From contig JAJRSO010000072.1 in the NCBI GenBank assembly GCA_024278755.1, positions 1 to 55,003 of the forward strand: DNA of 55,003 bases, written 5' to 3'. Positions 9,557 to 17,255 of this stretch are shown piece by piece. The translations under genes were made by a program, and so were the position numbers. This stretch comes from Calditrichota bacterium. Its GTDB lineage: Bacteria > Calditrichota > Calditrichia > Calditrichales > Calditrichaceae. Under the pieces are notes generated by a model. That model was not told the DNA's origin. It ran no database searches and saw nothing but the letters and a program-made list of their open reading frames with translations. The first letter of the stretch is position 1. Each line of letters opens with the position of its first letter.

Positions 9557-9694
9557 TTATCCGTTCGATTCTTCGGATATTTTATTTAGCTTTTTTTTAA
9601 GCGTTTCAATCTTTTTATCGGTTATAAGCAAATAACTGAAAATGCCTGTCCAGATAATCAAATTTATAACTAATACAACGTAAATCGGCTGCAT
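9557..9694 (-). CDS. ccmD: small CcmD-like membrane protein
   Basis: This 45-residue protein has one membrane helix followed by a charged coil: MQPIYVVLVINLIIWTGIF, then a lysine-rich tail with KKIETLKKKLNK. That is the layout of CcmD, which binds CcmC and CcmE and helps release holo-CcmE. The start at 9694 lies one base after the ccmC stop, with a GGAG ribosome site inside the last ccmC codons, so translation is coupled. Position between ccmC and ccmE is the classic ccmD slot. The protein is too short for sequence similarity alone to be decisive. Confidence 0.8.
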   Translation of the reverse strand: MQPIYVVLVINLIIWTGIFSYLLITDKKIETLKKKLNKISEESNG

Positions 9695-9695
9695 T

Positions 9696-10358
9696 TTAAT
9701 TCTCCATTTGTTTTAATTGTAATTGGATTCGGATAATATCAATGCGCTGTTTCAACAGCCAGACAAAAGCGGCTGTATATGCCGCTAACGAGCTTAAAAA
9801 GACCAGTAGCATTTTCCCGTCCATATGAATTTTCCCCTGGGTATTTACCAGAGGATCGGGATGCAGCGATTCATAAATCCGCGGTACGACAAATACAAAA
9901 AAAGGCACCGTTACAAAAGCGAGCAGGTCGTACACGGCCGAAAGCGCGGCACGGCGGTCGGCCTGCTCTACGGCAGAGCGCAAGGCAAAATAAGCTGCAT
10001 AAATGAGCAATAGAATAAATATTGACGTTTCGCGGGGATCCCAGTTCCAAAAAGAGCCCCAGCTCATTTTGGCCCAGATAGAACCGGTAATTGTTGCCAA
10101 AACGCCGAAAAGCAGACCTATCTGATTGGCCGCTTCCGCCCATAAATCATATTTAAGAATTTTCTTTCTGAGATAGAGACCGCTAAACAAAGCGCCCACG
10201 GCAAATGCGATAACCGTTATCCAGGCCGTTGGCACATGGAAGTAAAGCACCCGAGTATATTCGCCCAAACCTTTGGCCAGGGGCGCATAAAAAAAGGCTC
10301 CGTAAATGACGGAAGACAGTACAAAATACAAGATAAATTTAAGTAGTTTTACTAGCAT
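9696..10358 (-). CDS. ccmC: haem exporter/handling protein CcmC
   Basis: CcmC presents haem to CcmE. The 220-residue protein has six hydrophobic helices, the WWD motif (WGSFWNWDPRETS, about residues 100-112) and a conserved histidine at about 41 (YFHVP) before it. The frame is open 17 codons further upstream, but AAGGGG lies just ahead of the ATG at 10358 and MLVKLLKFILYF is a normal start for a first membrane helix. It follows ccmB after 93 nt and is coupled to ccmD. Confidence 0.93.
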   Translation of the reverse strand: MLVKLLKFILYFVLSSVIYGAFFYAPLAKGLGEYTRVLYFHVPTAWITVIAFAVGALFSGLYLRKKILKYDLWAEAANQIGLLFGVLATITGSIWAKMSWGSFWNWDPRETSIFILLLIYAAYFALRSAVEQADRRAALSAVYDLLAFVTVPFFVFVVPRIYESLHPDPLVNTQGKIHMDGKMLLVFLSSLAAYTAAFVWLLKQRIDIIRIQLQLKQMEN

Positions 10359-10451
10359 TTTTTCCCCTTCAAAAAGTGTAAATTTACTGTATCCCTGAGG
10401 AAAGAGCAAAAAATCCGACGCTTCTGTTTCATCTTAAACTATTCATTAGAC

Positions 10452-11948: not shown

Positions 11949-14669
11949 TTAGAAACCGAGGACTAAGTTAAACAATGCGTTTCTTTCCGCTCCGGGCAAT
12001 AAACCGTATTCGTTACCGATTTGCCAGAATTCTTCATTCAGAACATTATTGATATGTAAAGAAGCATTCAGATTAAACATACCAACATTTTGCTGCCAGC
12101 CGATAATCACATCAACAACTGACCATGCCGGAAGAACATCGCCTTCTTTTACATAGTTTTCAGTTTGTGTATCATATTCCAAACCTACAAATTCATTTCC
12201 CGGAAGAATATAATAATCTTTATAATGACGGGCAGCCATCGAAACATAAAGCGGGCCGTTATTATAGCTAATAACATTAGACATCATAAACTGAGGAGCG
12301 CCCGGTTCGATATTGCCTTTTTTAATACCAAGCTGTTCTTTTGCTTCTTCGGAAACGCCGCCGTTCCAGGAGTTTTCCATACGGGAAACAGAAGTGCCAA
12401 GTTTTAAGTGTTTGCTTATCATAATATTGCTGTTAAATTCGATACCGCGGTAGGTAGCGTCTCCAACCGGAATATAACGACGTCCTTTATAATCATAACC
12501 CGGCTCGTTTGCTTTGGTCGGATCCGTAATTCTGTACGCTTTATTCTGGAATTCAATATTGTATAAGTTCAGTTTAGCGTTAAAATTAGCAACCGCAAAG
12601 CCCATACCCAATTCAAAATCATCAGAAATTTCAATATCCAGTTCATCATTAGGCTGGCCATAGTTAAAGAAATATTTTACGCGGGGTTCATTGTATACGC
12701 GGCTGTAATTTGCGAATACATTCAAATGGTCTGTCAGGTTGTAGTTTGCGCCCAATTTAGGAGAAACAAACTGATAGCTTTTTGTAAAATCAACCAGATT
12801 AAATTTCACATTGGCGTTATTCACAAAACCATCGTTATTTCCACCTTCGAGATTCTGAGTCATTACATACGTTCCGTCTGCAACCGGACGGTTGTTTGAG
12901 GACGGGAAGTCTTCTTTAATATGATACATACGTAATGAATACTGCAAATCCGTCATAACATTCAAATCGCCAAAATTCCAAAGCGCATGCCCAAATATCG
13001 AAAAATTCGGTTTGGTATTGGTGTTATCATAATACACATCACCTTCGCGAAAAATGGATTTTGCTCCACCGACTTTGATTTGCGCATTATCAAGCGCTAC
13101 ATTGGCATCGGCTTTATTTCCAAACGTATTGATTATCAAACCGTAATGGCGCGCCCACCAGTAACGGCCTTCGGCACCAACTGAAAATTCATGATTGTTC
13201 CATTTGGTATTATACGTGGCAACAGCGCCAAACTGGTTATGGATGGAATGTGCACGGTATTGATACACACCTTTTCTGAGAAAGTTATAACCGCCATTGG
13301 CAAAAGTAGAATTAGCGCCCATATCTACAATATCCTGCATCGTAATCTGACCGCTGGCATCTCTGTAGCCCATACTGGTAAAAGCCCAGGCATTACTGAT
13401 ATTTTCACCATATCCGCGTCCCATTGTACCAAATGAGTTAATTTGCAGATAACTGTCTTTATTGATATCCCAGGTATAATGCAACTCTAACTGCGGTTTA
13501 TGAAAAACATTGTTATCAAAAGAAACATTGCCGTTTCCGATAACTTCACCGCCCTTGTCCTTATCAACATGGCCAAAATAGAGCATATCTATCAGGCTGG
13601 TACCGTCTTTTTCACGGCTGGTTAAACCGGCGTCATTATCGGCAACATAAGGATGGCTGTTGAAATCACGTCCCCACTTGGCGTAAGTATCTGCCGAATT
13701 CGAATAGTATGAATAGGCGTGGAACTGAGGAGCGCCATGCAGAACCAGACGGAAGGTGTGGTTTTCATTCATAAAATAGGACAGGCCAAAGTAATATGAC
13801 ATTCCCTGGTAATACGTGTCTTTTCTCCAGCCGTTTCCATTCATATAGTTGATACGGGTTAAAAAAGACATTTTATTGTCAGCAAATAAACCGGTGTTGT
13901 AATCAAAACCCAGTTTATAAGTATTGTACATACCCGCTGTCGTATTGATTTTAAAACTCGAAACAGCCGGAGCGTCTGCTGTTAAAACATTAATGGAACC
14001 GCCGAAAGCGCCGGCGCCGTATAATGAAGAACCTGCGCCACGCTGTACCTGAATGGACTGGGAGCCACTGGGCAGTGCGCCCCAGTTTGACCAGTAAACT
14101 TTTTTCGATTCGGGATCATTTACTTCGATATTGTTAATCATTACACTCATACGTTGTTCATCGAAACCGCGGATATACACTTTAGAGTCACCCAGGCCGC
14201 TTCCACCGTCGGAAGTAACATAAATACCCGGTGTATTTACGAAGAGATGTGGAACATCCTGTACGGTAAAACCTTTGGAAATTTCATCGGCTGTAATATT
14301 GGTAAAAGCAACCGGTGTCTCACGTTCTTTCGCACGGCTGGCTTCTACGATAATATCACTCGTTTTTAAGATATTGGCCTTTAATGCAAAATCAACCACT
14401 GTCTTTGCTCCGGACACGGTTACGCTTTTGCGAACTTCATTATAACTAACGAATGAACATACAAATGTATATGTTCCATCGTCAATTTCAAAGAAGAACA
14501 TACCGTCTTCGTCGGTTGCCGCGCCTACTGATGTGCCTTCAACAAAAACATTAGCGCCTGCCAAAGCTACGCCGGTCGCCGCATCTGTAACCTTACCGGC
14601 TACACTACCTGCAAACACGCTGCTTACAGCAAACATAAGGACTGAAATAAAAAGTATGATTTGTTTCAT
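11949..14669 (-). CDS. TonB-dependent outer-membrane receptor
   Basis: This should be an active transporter in the outer membrane powered by TonB. The 906-residue precursor has a signal peptide (about 1-20), a carboxypeptidase-regulatory-like beta domain (about 22-105; GKVTDAATGVALAGANVFVEG), a plug domain (about 118-230; VYIRGFDEQRMSVMINNIEV) and a long beta-barrel ending in phenylalanine (NLVLGF), as outer-membrane proteins do. The start has a GGAGG site. The domain order is that of the FCB-type receptors. No SusD partner, ABC transporter or riboswitch is seen nearby, so the substrate (siderophore, cobalamin, peptide or glycan) is unknown. It is a single-gene unit. Confidence 0.92.
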   Translation of the reverse strand: MKQIILFISVLMFAVSSVFAGSVAGKVTDAATGVALAGANVFVEGTSVGAATDEDGMFFFEIDDGTYTFVCSFVSYNEVRKSVTVSGAKTVVDFALKANILKTSDIIVEASRAKERETPVAFTNITADEISKGFTVQDVPHLFVNTPGIYVTSDGGSGLGDSKVYIRGFDEQRMSVMINNIEVNDPESKKVYWSNWGALPSGSQSIQVQRGAGSSLYGAGAFGGSINVLTADAPAVSSFKINTTAGMYNTYKLGFDYNTGLFADNKMSFLTRINYMNGNGWRKDTYYQGMSYYFGLSYFMNENHTFRLVLHGAPQFHAYSYYSNSADTYAKWGRDFNSHPYVADNDAGLTSREKDGTSLIDMLYFGHVDKDKGGEVIGNGNVSFDNNVFHKPQLELHYTWDINKDSYLQINSFGTMGRGYGENISNAWAFTSMGYRDASGQITMQDIVDMGANSTFANGGYNFLRKGVYQYRAHSIHNQFGAVATYNTKWNNHEFSVGAEGRYWWARHYGLIINTFGNKADANVALDNAQIKVGGAKSIFREGDVYYDNTNTKPNFSIFGHALWNFGDLNVMTDLQYSLRMYHIKEDFPSSNNRPVADGTYVMTQNLEGGNNDGFVNNANVKFNLVDFTKSYQFVSPKLGANYNLTDHLNVFANYSRVYNEPRVKYFFNYGQPNDELDIEISDDFELGMGFAVANFNAKLNLYNIEFQNKAYRITDPTKANEPGYDYKGRRYIPVGDATYRGIEFNSNIMISKHLKLGTSVSRMENSWNGGVSEEAKEQLGIKKGNIEPGAPQFMMSNVISYNNGPLYVSMAARHYKDYYILPGNEFVGLEYDTQTENYVKEGDVLPAWSVVDVIIGWQQNVGMFNLNASLHINNVLNEEFWQIGNEYGLLPGAERNALFNLVLGF

Positions 14670-14973: not shown

Positions 14974-15183
14974 TTATTTATAACGTACATCATGTTCATA
15001 CATTTCCTGTACGACTTTACGTAAAATTTCGTCTCTTTCGTAAAATTTATTACGAATACGCATACGAACCAACTCCAATTTCTGCGCCTCAATACCCTGA
15101 GAAGCGGATTTGGTTTTTATTGTTTTAGCCTTGTTTTGCACCTGGCTACCTGTATAGTTTAGCTGACTGTTTTCTACTCTCAT
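14974..15183 (-). CDS. FlgM-like putative anti-sigma factor
   Basis: This 69-residue basic protein has a polar, probably disordered first half (MRVENSQLNYTGSQVQ, then a lysine/serine linker) and a helical second half, LELVRMRIRNKFYERDEIL to the end. That resembles the C-terminal FlgM pattern (L..IR..I..G.Y.....I...ML) that clamps sigma-28. FlgM keeps the flagellar sigma factor inactive until it is exported. Context supports the idea: a FliA/WhiG-like sigma gene lies two genes upstream and a sigma-28-type promoter directly precedes this gene. The glycine usual in the FlgM motif is an asparagine here. The ATG at 15183 is used; a TTG at 15189 is in frame. Similarity is weak, so the call is provisional. 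Confidence 0.6.
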   Translation of the reverse strand: MRVENSQLNYTGSQVQNKAKTIKTKSASQGIEAQKLELVRMRIRNKFYERDEILRKVVQEMYEHDVRYK

Positions 15184-15191
15184 TAACAAAA

Positions 15192-15218
15192 CTATCGGAT
15201 AGCTTGATACAAACTTTA
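15192..15218 (-). promoter_or_regulatory. sigma-28-type promoter
   Basis: On the minus strand TAAAGTTT (15218-15211) is followed after exactly 11 nt by TCCGATAG (15199-15192). The consensus for FliA-type sigma factors is TAAAGTTT-N11-GCCGATAA, so the -35 is perfect and the -10 matches 6 of 8. Transcription would start near 15186, giving an almost leaderless message for the ATG at 15183, which indeed has no ribosome site. Confidence 0.7.
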
Positions 15219-15255: not shown

Positions 15256-16395
15256 TCAGGAGAGGGGGAATTTCATAATGAAACGGTTGCCAACTTTATT
15301 GTCCGCATCAACCTGTAAGCTACCGCCATGCGCTTCCACAGCCAACTTACTAAAGGTTAATGTCAATCCACGACCCAGGCGAAAACCTTCGTTTTTAATT
15401 TCGACCTGGCTAAATTTATCAAAAATACTTTCACTGTATTTTATGGGAATCTGAATACCAAAGTCGTGTAGTATCACTCCAACTTCGGTTTCCGTTATAA
15501 ACGTTTGTATTTCAATCTTCCCATCGGATCCAACGTTAGAAGCCGCAAATGTCAGCATATTATCAAACACCCGTTCCATAACGGAAGTATCCAGTTTGAT
15601 AAACGGCATTTTATCGGCCAGTATAAGTTCTATCTGCTTCTTTTCATTTTCCGGATAATCCATTATCCGTTCATGAGCTTTTTCAATCAATTCATTCAAA
15701 CCAATAAGCTCTTTACTCAGTTCTATGGAACCGCCTTCAATTTTAAAAACGTCAATTAAATTAAGCACCATGCGCAATAAGTTTTGTGTACTGCGATCAA
15801 TACGGCCCAGGTATTTCTGAACCATTGGCGAAATGGAATCTCCAAGACCCATTTCCATCATTTGTAAATTCCCCTGGATTACAAAAAGCGGGTTCTTCAT
15901 ATCATGAACAATCAGATGGTTCAGTTCTTCTTTAAACTGATCCATCTTTAATAACGCTTTATTTTTTTCTTCTAGCTCGAGGTTTTTTTCTTCCAGCTGG
16001 TCGTGGTAGCGTTTTATACGCAAAAGTGATTTAACCCGTGTCAGTAATTCCACATTTTCGAAAGGTTTCGAAATAAAATCATCGGCGCCCACTTCCAAGC
16101 TGCGGATCTTGTCCTTTAATTCTTTAAGAGCGGTAATCATAATGACCGGGATAAAACGGGTCTCGGCATTCTTCTTTATCCGTTCACAAACCTGAAACCC
16201 ATCCATTTTGGGAAGCATGATGTCCAGTAAAATAATATCCGGTTTTGTATTTTCGACCTGCGTTAAAGCCTCTACACCATCTGTGGCTGTATAAATTTGA
16301 TAATTCTGAGGCTTTAAAAAATAAGCAATTAAATCGATATTTTCTTTATTGTCATCTACAATGAGGATTTTAGGATTATTAACTTCCGAAACCAT
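15256..16395 (-). CDS. receiver-histidine kinase fusion protein
   Basis: This soluble 379-residue signalling protein begins with a receiver domain (ILIVDDNKENID; phospho-acceptor aspartate in IILLDIMLPKMDG) followed by a coiled coil and a kinase core with the H-box VHDMKNPLFVIQGN. The ATP-binding domain is altered: the G1 box reads HDFGIQIP instead of DxGxGIP and the G2 box reads GRGLTLTF where GLGL is normal. ATP binding may thus be weak, and the protein may act by dimerisation or as a phosphatase. The start at 16395 has AAAGGA ahead; an upstream in-frame extension lacks one. It lies 104 nt after the sigma gene and 72 nt before the FlgM-like gene, which suggests a shared regulatory role. Confidence 0.82.
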   Translation of the reverse strand: MVSEVNNPKILIVDDNKENIDLIAYFLKPQNYQIYTATDGVEALTQVENTKPDIILLDIMLPKMDGFQVCERIKKNAETRFIPVIMITALKELKDKIRSLEVGADDFISKPFENVELLTRVKSLLRIKRYHDQLEEKNLELEEKNKALLKMDQFKEELNHLIVHDMKNPLFVIQGNLQMMEMGLGDSISPMVQKYLGRIDRSTQNLLRMVLNLIDVFKIEGGSIELSKELIGLNELIEKAHERIMDYPENEKKQIELILADKMPFIKLDTSVMERVFDNMLTFAASNVGSDGKIEIQTFITETEVGVILHDFGIQIPIKYSESIFDKFSQVEIKNEGFRLGRGLTLTFSKLAVEAHGGSLQVDADNKVGNRFIMKFPLS

Positions 16396-16499: not shown

Positions 16500-17255
16500 T
16501 TAGGCATACGTCATTTTATTAATTTCACGTTTGAGCCGGGCCATTGTTTCAGAATGAATCTGAGAAATTCTGGACTCGGAAACATTGAGTATTTTGCCTA
16601 TTTCTTTAAAGGTAAGCTTTTCGTAATAGTACAGGGTGATGGCGAGCCTTGTTTTTTCCGGAAGCTTTTTAATAGATTTTAACAAAATGCGTTTCATTTC
16701 CTCTTCTTCGATTTTATCATCTGCCTGAACATAAGAACCGTCTTCCAAAACATCATACAAGTTTTGCTTACTTGTTTCATCAAGCGGACGGTCTAATGAA
16801 TAGAGATTTGCCGAATTATAATTTTTCTTCCAGTTATTCAAATTTTTCATTTCAATACCCAAACCCGCGGCCATTTCTTCATCGGTATAGTTTCCCGAAA
16901 ACTTTTGTTCCAACTGGATCGATTTATCGCGCATGGAATTCAGCTTAGCGCGCAGAGAACGGGGAATCCAGTCCAGTTTTCGCAATTCATCAATTATGGA
17001 GCCTTTAATACGCGGAATGGCATAGGTTTCAAATTTAATTCCATATTCCGGATCAAAACGTTCGATGGCTTCGGATAAACCAAGAATGCCAATCTGATAT
17101 AGATCGTTTTCTTCAAGAGCCTGTGGATAGTTTTTTATCATCTTTCGTACCACATATTTCACCAATCCGACATATTTCAGCATCAGGGCTTGTCGATGAC
17201 GAATACTATTGGTGTTTTTGTATTCAAACCAGATTGGGTCAACAGCTCTTTGCAT
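16500..17255 (-). CDS. FliA/WhiG-family RNA polymerase sigma factor
   Basis: The 251-residue protein is an alternative sigma factor of the sigma-28 group. Region 2 contains YVVRKMIKNYPQALEENDLY and the core-binding helix GILGLSEAIERFDPEYGIKF; then come FETYAIPRIKGSIIDELRK and WIPRSLRAKL, both typical of FliA, region 3, and region 4 (TFKEIGKILNVSESRISQIH) which reads the -35 element. The start has AGGA in front. The class usually drives flagellar, chemotaxis or developmental genes. No structural flagellar gene is in the window, but the FlgM-like gene and its promoter downstream fit this sigma. Whether it is the true flagellar sigma cannot be decided here. Confidence 0.92.
   Translation of the reverse strand: MQRAVDPIWFEYKNTNSIRHRQALMLKYVGLVKYVVRKMIKNYPQALEENDLYQIGILGLSEAIERFDPEYGIKFETYAIPRIKGSIIDELRKLDWIPRSLRAKLNSMRDKSIQLEQKFSGNYTDEEMAAGLGIEMKNLNNWKKNYNSANLYSLDRPLDETSKQNLYDVLEDGSYVQADDKIEEEEMKRILLKSIKKLPEKTRLAITLYYYEKLTFKEIGKILNVSESRISQIHSETMARLKREINKMTYA

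Follow-up and report, generated by a model that had tools for sequence, protein, structure and literature searches.

What does a FlgM-like protein do when its gene lies beside an isolated sigma factor? We addressed this question in a stretch of 55,003 nucleotides (the window), one contig of a 3.94-Mb draft genome whose named relatives are members of the Calditrichaceae and other Calditrichia. FlgM is the textbook example of an anti-sigma factor that, by being exported through a machine, detects when that machine is complete; its C-terminal half inhibits the sigma factor and its N-terminal part serves export. We propose that the small protein encoded in the window, hereafter mini-FlgM, is a shortened FlgM-family anti-sigma factor acting on a neighbouring sigma factor (sigma A), and that the two would form an autoregulated, flagellum-independent sigma-28/FlgM switch, a reading that we hold with a probability of about 0.78. 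It draws on the family membership of the protein core, the conservation of its promoter, gene order, co-occurrence, separate promoter classes and persistence in genomes without FlhA or FliP matches, all of which are read from sequence; from these we infer binding, inhibition, promoter activity, a regulon and a mechanism of release.

The genes concerned lie on the reverse strand. Sigma A (16500-17255), with its canonical segment IDELRKLDWIPRSLR, scores 235.7 bits against the FliA/WhiG model TIGR02479, above the curated cut-off of 189.6, confirming the FliA/WhiG-type sigma gene that a preliminary description of this DNA had placed two genes upstream of mini-FlgM. Between them lies a gene for a protein with receiver, HisKA and HATPase domains (15256-16395), whose position is conserved. 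The mini-FlgM open reading frame (ORF) occupies 14974-15183, with 69 codons from an ATG at 15183-15181 and a stop at 14976-14974. A TonB-type receptor gene (window 11949-14669) is also found downstream of mini-FlgM in most relatives, at a very variable identity of about 27-93%.

The encoded protein is basic, as first described, with 15 K/R against 9 D/E, and the disorder attributed to its first half is mirrored in low AlphaFold confidence over the first 30 residues (pLDDT 51-60, against 68-80 beyond). The model, of modest overall confidence (pLDDT 67), predicts helices at residues 7-45 and 50-68 with a break at NKFY. Alignment, profile comparisons and predicted structure together delimit a conserved anti-sigma-like core at residues ~30-64 (IEAQKLELVRMRIRNKFYERDEILRKVVQEMYE). 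Homologues, weak matches among them, were found in 35 of the 60 relatives searched. Twenty short homologues, drawn from the window genome's own family and order and from the sister family, were extracted with start codons picked by eye, and 18 of these were aligned; K35, R42, I43, N45 and Y48 are invariant in the alignment.

Searched alone, the window protein gave no FlgM match in Pfam (PF04316) or NCBIfam, whereas PF04316 does match 4 of the 18 homologues, the best of them at E 2.5e-5 and about 23 bits, which is below the Pfam cut-off of 25. When the mini-FlgM family was compared by hhalign with nine full-length FlgMs, the probability was 94.9% and the E value 4.8e-8, over 37 ungapped query columns. 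An HMM of nine full-length FlgMs, every one above the Pfam cut-off, recovered the window protein at E 9.3e-6 in a search of 12,262 ORFs from the loci, and the reciprocal search of ORFs from the loci with the mini-FlgM family HMM led to FlgM-type proteins. Against solved structures the family profile found no FlgM and gave a spurious match only. It is through its homologues, then, that the FlgM-like second half of the preliminary description, and with it the idea of a short, divergent FlgM, gains its backing.

The alignment is confined to one end of FlgM. The homologues of mini-FlgM align solely to the last ~37 columns, in the C-terminal half, and conservation among them is highest at the residues aligned with this end of the full-length protein. 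The short proteins have no counterpart to the N-terminal half, in which full-length relatives bear a DK(A/L)E(F/I)S..AK segment, and the family does not show the full-length FlgM architecture. The comparisons support the view that mini-FlgM is a shortened FlgM-family protein predicted to retain only the sigma-binding C-terminal half. To judge by the title of a work cited in PMC3861889, that half of FlgM gains structure upon binding sigma-28. Mini-FlgM thus resembles FlgM (PF04316) in its C-terminal helix-hinge-helix core and in having its own sigma-28-type promoter, with likely negative feedback (for FlgM, PMC3861889). It differs in being only 49-69 residues long across the short homologues, in lacking the N-terminal half, in the position of its gene next to an orphan sigma factor instead of flagellar genes, and in its retention in genomes without detectable flagellar export genes.

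The sigma-28 promoter proposed in the preliminary description is present, with a -35 element TAAAGTTT at 15211-15218 and a -10 element TCCGATAG at 15192-15199, both on the reverse strand and separated by an 11-nt spacer. We refer to this type, recognised by sequence and by conservation across genomes, as class A. A near-consensus class A motif occurs once in the 3.94 Mb and the reversed control likewise once, which is not beyond chance within the window genome alone. Yet the promoter lies upstream of mini-FlgM in 20 of 20 short homologues, with a TAAAG-type -35, an NCCGA -10 and a spacing of 11 in all. Promoter scores were 10.8-12.8 in these homologues against 7.4-10.4 in 17 coding control stretches, and Markov-shuffled copies of each homologue's own upstream region reached its score in at most 1% of cases (0/400 for 14 of the 20). 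Because it is conserved across genomes, we judge the promoter to be well above chance, and that mini-FlgM stands behind a predicted sigma-28-type promoter is supported. The same conservation refutes the idea of a chance ORF beside a chance promoter match. The genomic motif count, equal to the control in the window genome, is what that idea would expect, whereas ORF, gene order and promoter are kept in about 20 genomes of three families, and codons 36-69 differ between the window genome and its nearest relative by 11 synonymous and only 2 non-synonymous changes; we regard a coincidence of this kind as extremely improbable.

Where translation begins is less clear-cut. The ATG lies eight bases downstream of the -10 element, and a nearly leaderless message had been suggested on these grounds. 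That suggestion is not established: an ATG 8-9 nt past the -10 element occurs only in the three closest genomes (G000, G001 and G004), most other homologues start tens of bases downstream, and codons 1-14 are weakly constrained, the two closest genomes differing there by 2 synonymous and 5 non-synonymous changes. The start of many homologues lines up with codon 15, a GTG (15141-15139, reverse strand); this codon is also GTG in G001, and G004 has an ATG one codon earlier. Initiation there would give a protein of 55 residues and a leader of roughly 43 nt, similar to the homologues. Both starts, the ATG at 15183 and the GTG at 15141, are possible from the alignment. Just upstream of the mini-FlgM start, loci L014 and L011 contain a nine-codon frame, MIHKVWYGD, after AGGAG. 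This frame and the mini-FlgM start overlap in G020 and, it appears, in G018, which suggests translational coupling; in G017 the frame is not conserved.

In 15 genomes sigma A, kinase and mini-FlgM follow one another in this order on one strand, in a span of about 2.6 kb. Of the clade's 24 genomes, sigma A and mini-FlgM occur together in 19 and are both absent from four (G003, G005, G012, G015); the one exception, G001, has mini-FlgM on a contig that breaks off within the kinase gene. The joint presence is significant by Fisher's test (4.7e-4, shared ancestry being ignored). From this linkage and co-occurrence sigma A is the presumed partner of mini-FlgM, and the sigma/anti-sigma pairing put forward in the preliminary description is supported by the FlgM profiles via homologues, the conserved promoter, gene order and joint presence or absence. 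It might instead be that mini-FlgM, although derived from FlgM and dependent on sigma A, does not inhibit it and acts as a sigma stabiliser or pairs with the kinase. Protection of sigma-28 against proteolysis is a further function of FlgM (reviewed in PMC3861889), the mini-FlgM family is short, and the kinase gene always stands between sigma A and mini-FlgM. We consider this alternative unlikely, as the best-conserved residues match the C-terminal part of FlgM with the query ungapped.

If mini-FlgM is an anti-sigma factor of sigma A, the two could still be the FlgM/FliA pair of the flagellum, and the window genome does have a large flagellar gene set. That set has its own regulators. A flagellar operon on contig 27 (flhF-flhG-FliA) encodes a FliA of its own (sigma B), and contig 77 carries two tandem full-length FlgM-like genes behind fliC-fliS-fliD-flaG (locus L058, ~9619-9950 and 10079-10444), the second of which, flgM3, has its own promoter, TTTAAGTAATCTATCCATCCCACGAC, of a different type (class B). 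In a tree of 48 proteins, sigma A and sigma B fall on two sides of a branch with 100/100 support, at which long branches meet. The class B promoter, TTTAA-N13/14-CCNNCGAC, precedes fliC and flgM3 in the window's family in a nearly constant register, and in the window genome its pattern matches seven places, two of them fliC and flgM3. Both flagellar stretches of this genome are free of class A motifs with up to one mismatch. Sigma A retains the segment DELRKLDWIPRSLR where sigma B has DTLRKEGMIGRDKYE, a difference that fits the existence of two promoter classes.

In view of the second FliA, the two FlgMs of contig 77 and the class B promoter, we reject the reading of sigma A and mini-FlgM as the flagellar pair; gene content and promoter sequence suggest that the flagellin genes depend on a different FliA, different FlgMs and a different promoter class. 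In the Calditrichia a distinct promoter class, TTTAARAA ... CCNACGAC, precedes flagellin and flgM genes alongside a FliA without the DWIPR segment; the sites are L058 14102 (-), L061 4807 and 8897, L065 5532 and 9622, L067 3611 and 4726, L146 10626 (-), and L147 7210 and 10840 (-). Two FliA-family sigma factors per cell, with FlgM-type partners for both, are also known from dual-flagellum bacteria, which have polar and lateral systems (FliA/FliAL of Plesiomonas; PMC11242183). The present case differs in that the window genome has a single FlhA, and therefore one flagellar system, in that the second circuit has no flagellum, and in that the promoter classes are clearly distinct.

The distribution of the locus points the same way. 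Five genomes have sigma A, mini-FlgM and the promoter but no FlhA or FliP match, namely G002 (96% complete), G008 (94%), G022 (92%), G026 (80%) and G011 (73%), although most relatives are draft metagenome assemblies, in any single one of which such an absence is not proof. G012 and G015 show the opposite pattern, with FlhA, FliP and sigma B present and both sigma A and mini-FlgM missing, and across the clade sigma A shows no association with flagellar genes (Fisher 0.61). If the absences of FlhA and FliP are real, sigma A cannot be set free by export through a flagellum in those five genomes; since the arrangement is kept in relatives seemingly without a flagellum, the switch appears to have been freed from flagellum assembly. 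Four further genomes of the same class (G025, G028, G029, G034) also lack FlhA and FliP matches and encode a sigma A orthologue, some with a FlgM-like gene. In the cultured relative Caldithrix abyssi flagellar genes are present, yet electron micrographs showed no flagella (PMC5317091).

These observations also bear on the proposal that mini-FlgM is an extra flagellar brake, binding sigma B alone or together with sigma A and exported through the flagellum. The genome's flagellar gene set would accommodate such a role, and FlgM-family helices could cross-bind related sigma factors. G012 and G015, however, have flagellar genes and sigma B without mini-FlgM, the five genomes without FlhA or FliP matches retain it, sigma B has two full-length FlgMs of its own nearby, one of them under a class B promoter, and mini-FlgM lacks the N-terminal half. 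An additional brake is improbable on this evidence.

An origin for the stand-alone pair of sigma A and mini-FlgM can be proposed from families f3, f5 and f6, where the gene for the sigma A orthologue frequently adjoins flhG, within a flagellar cluster of another kind and a few kilobases from a homologue of the kinase. The window locus therefore looks like a relic of that cluster, and we infer that it was retained after another cluster had replaced it.

The switch we propose would work as follows. Sigma A would transcribe mini-FlgM from TAAAGTTT-N11-TCCGATAG, and mini-FlgM would bind sigma A through its C-terminal helix pair and turn it off, closing a negative feedback loop. With mini-FlgM untied from flagellum assembly in this way, release of sigma A would need a route other than flagellar export, and the receiver-kinase protein encoded between the two genes would be the first suspect. 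A broader scenario, which we put forward tentatively, is that the Calditrichia replaced or lost the flagellar cluster of sigma A and kept the sigma factor and its truncated FlgM as a stand-alone module, released by the receiver-kinase (or by proteolysis) for control of chemoreceptor and c-di-GMP genes. A FlgM-family pair that outlives its flagellum would show that the checkpoint is detachable and reusable, and raises the question of how the sigma factor is freed. Moreover, two FliA-family sigma factors, two types of FlgM and two promoter codes in one cell offer a natural experiment on how specifically sigma factors pair with anti-sigma factors and with promoters, and this in a phylum, the Calditrichota, on which there has been almost no regulatory work.

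Candidate targets of sigma A come from the position of class A motifs relative to genes. With up to one mismatch the motif has 29 genomic matches against 26 for the reversed pattern, hence no excess, and counts per genome in 60 relatives showed no clear excess over the control. As these totals equal the reversed control, they were rejected as evidence and position was used instead: 14 of the 29 matches, against 1 of the 26 reversed ones, are intergenic, with a same-strand ORF beginning 20-180 nt downstream (p 1.8e-4). Among the genes behind motifs with up to one mismatch are two for methyl-accepting-type proteins, one for a Cache-like secreted protein and one for a response regulator; with a stricter pattern that omits the last positions, an HD-GYP response regulator and a hemerythrin join the list. 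All these names come from reading the translations and not from a domain search. In G001 the orthologues of the HD-GYP, hemerythrin and MerR-like genes also have the class A motif in front of them, and G004 and G009 have it before an orthologous lipoprotein gene. Judging by these motif positions, the regulon of sigma A may comprise genes for chemoreceptors, an HD-GYP-type regulator and hemerythrin, along with similar signalling genes.

Such targets recall WhiG and its c-di-GMP-dependent anti-sigma factor RsiG in Streptomyces and Rubrobacter (PMC8325347), where a FliA/WhiG-family sigma factor likewise acts outside flagella under a small helical anti-sigma factor and the targets are also c-di-GMP-related. 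An RsiG-type identity for mini-FlgM would suit the good scores of sigma A against WhiG models and the c-di-GMP-type proteins among the likely targets. The homology of mini-FlgM, however, is to FlgM, from which it derives, and the RsiG c-di-GMP signature, E(X)3S(X)2R(X)3Q(X)3D (PMC8325347), is absent from the 69-residue sequence; an RsiG-type protein is disfavoured to the point of being very hard to credit.

One further ORF behind a sigma A-type promoter deserves mention: the downstream ORF of L154 (contig 44:7927) encodes a methyl-accepting-type protein that apparently ends in a zinc-binding (CZB-like) segment at its C terminus.
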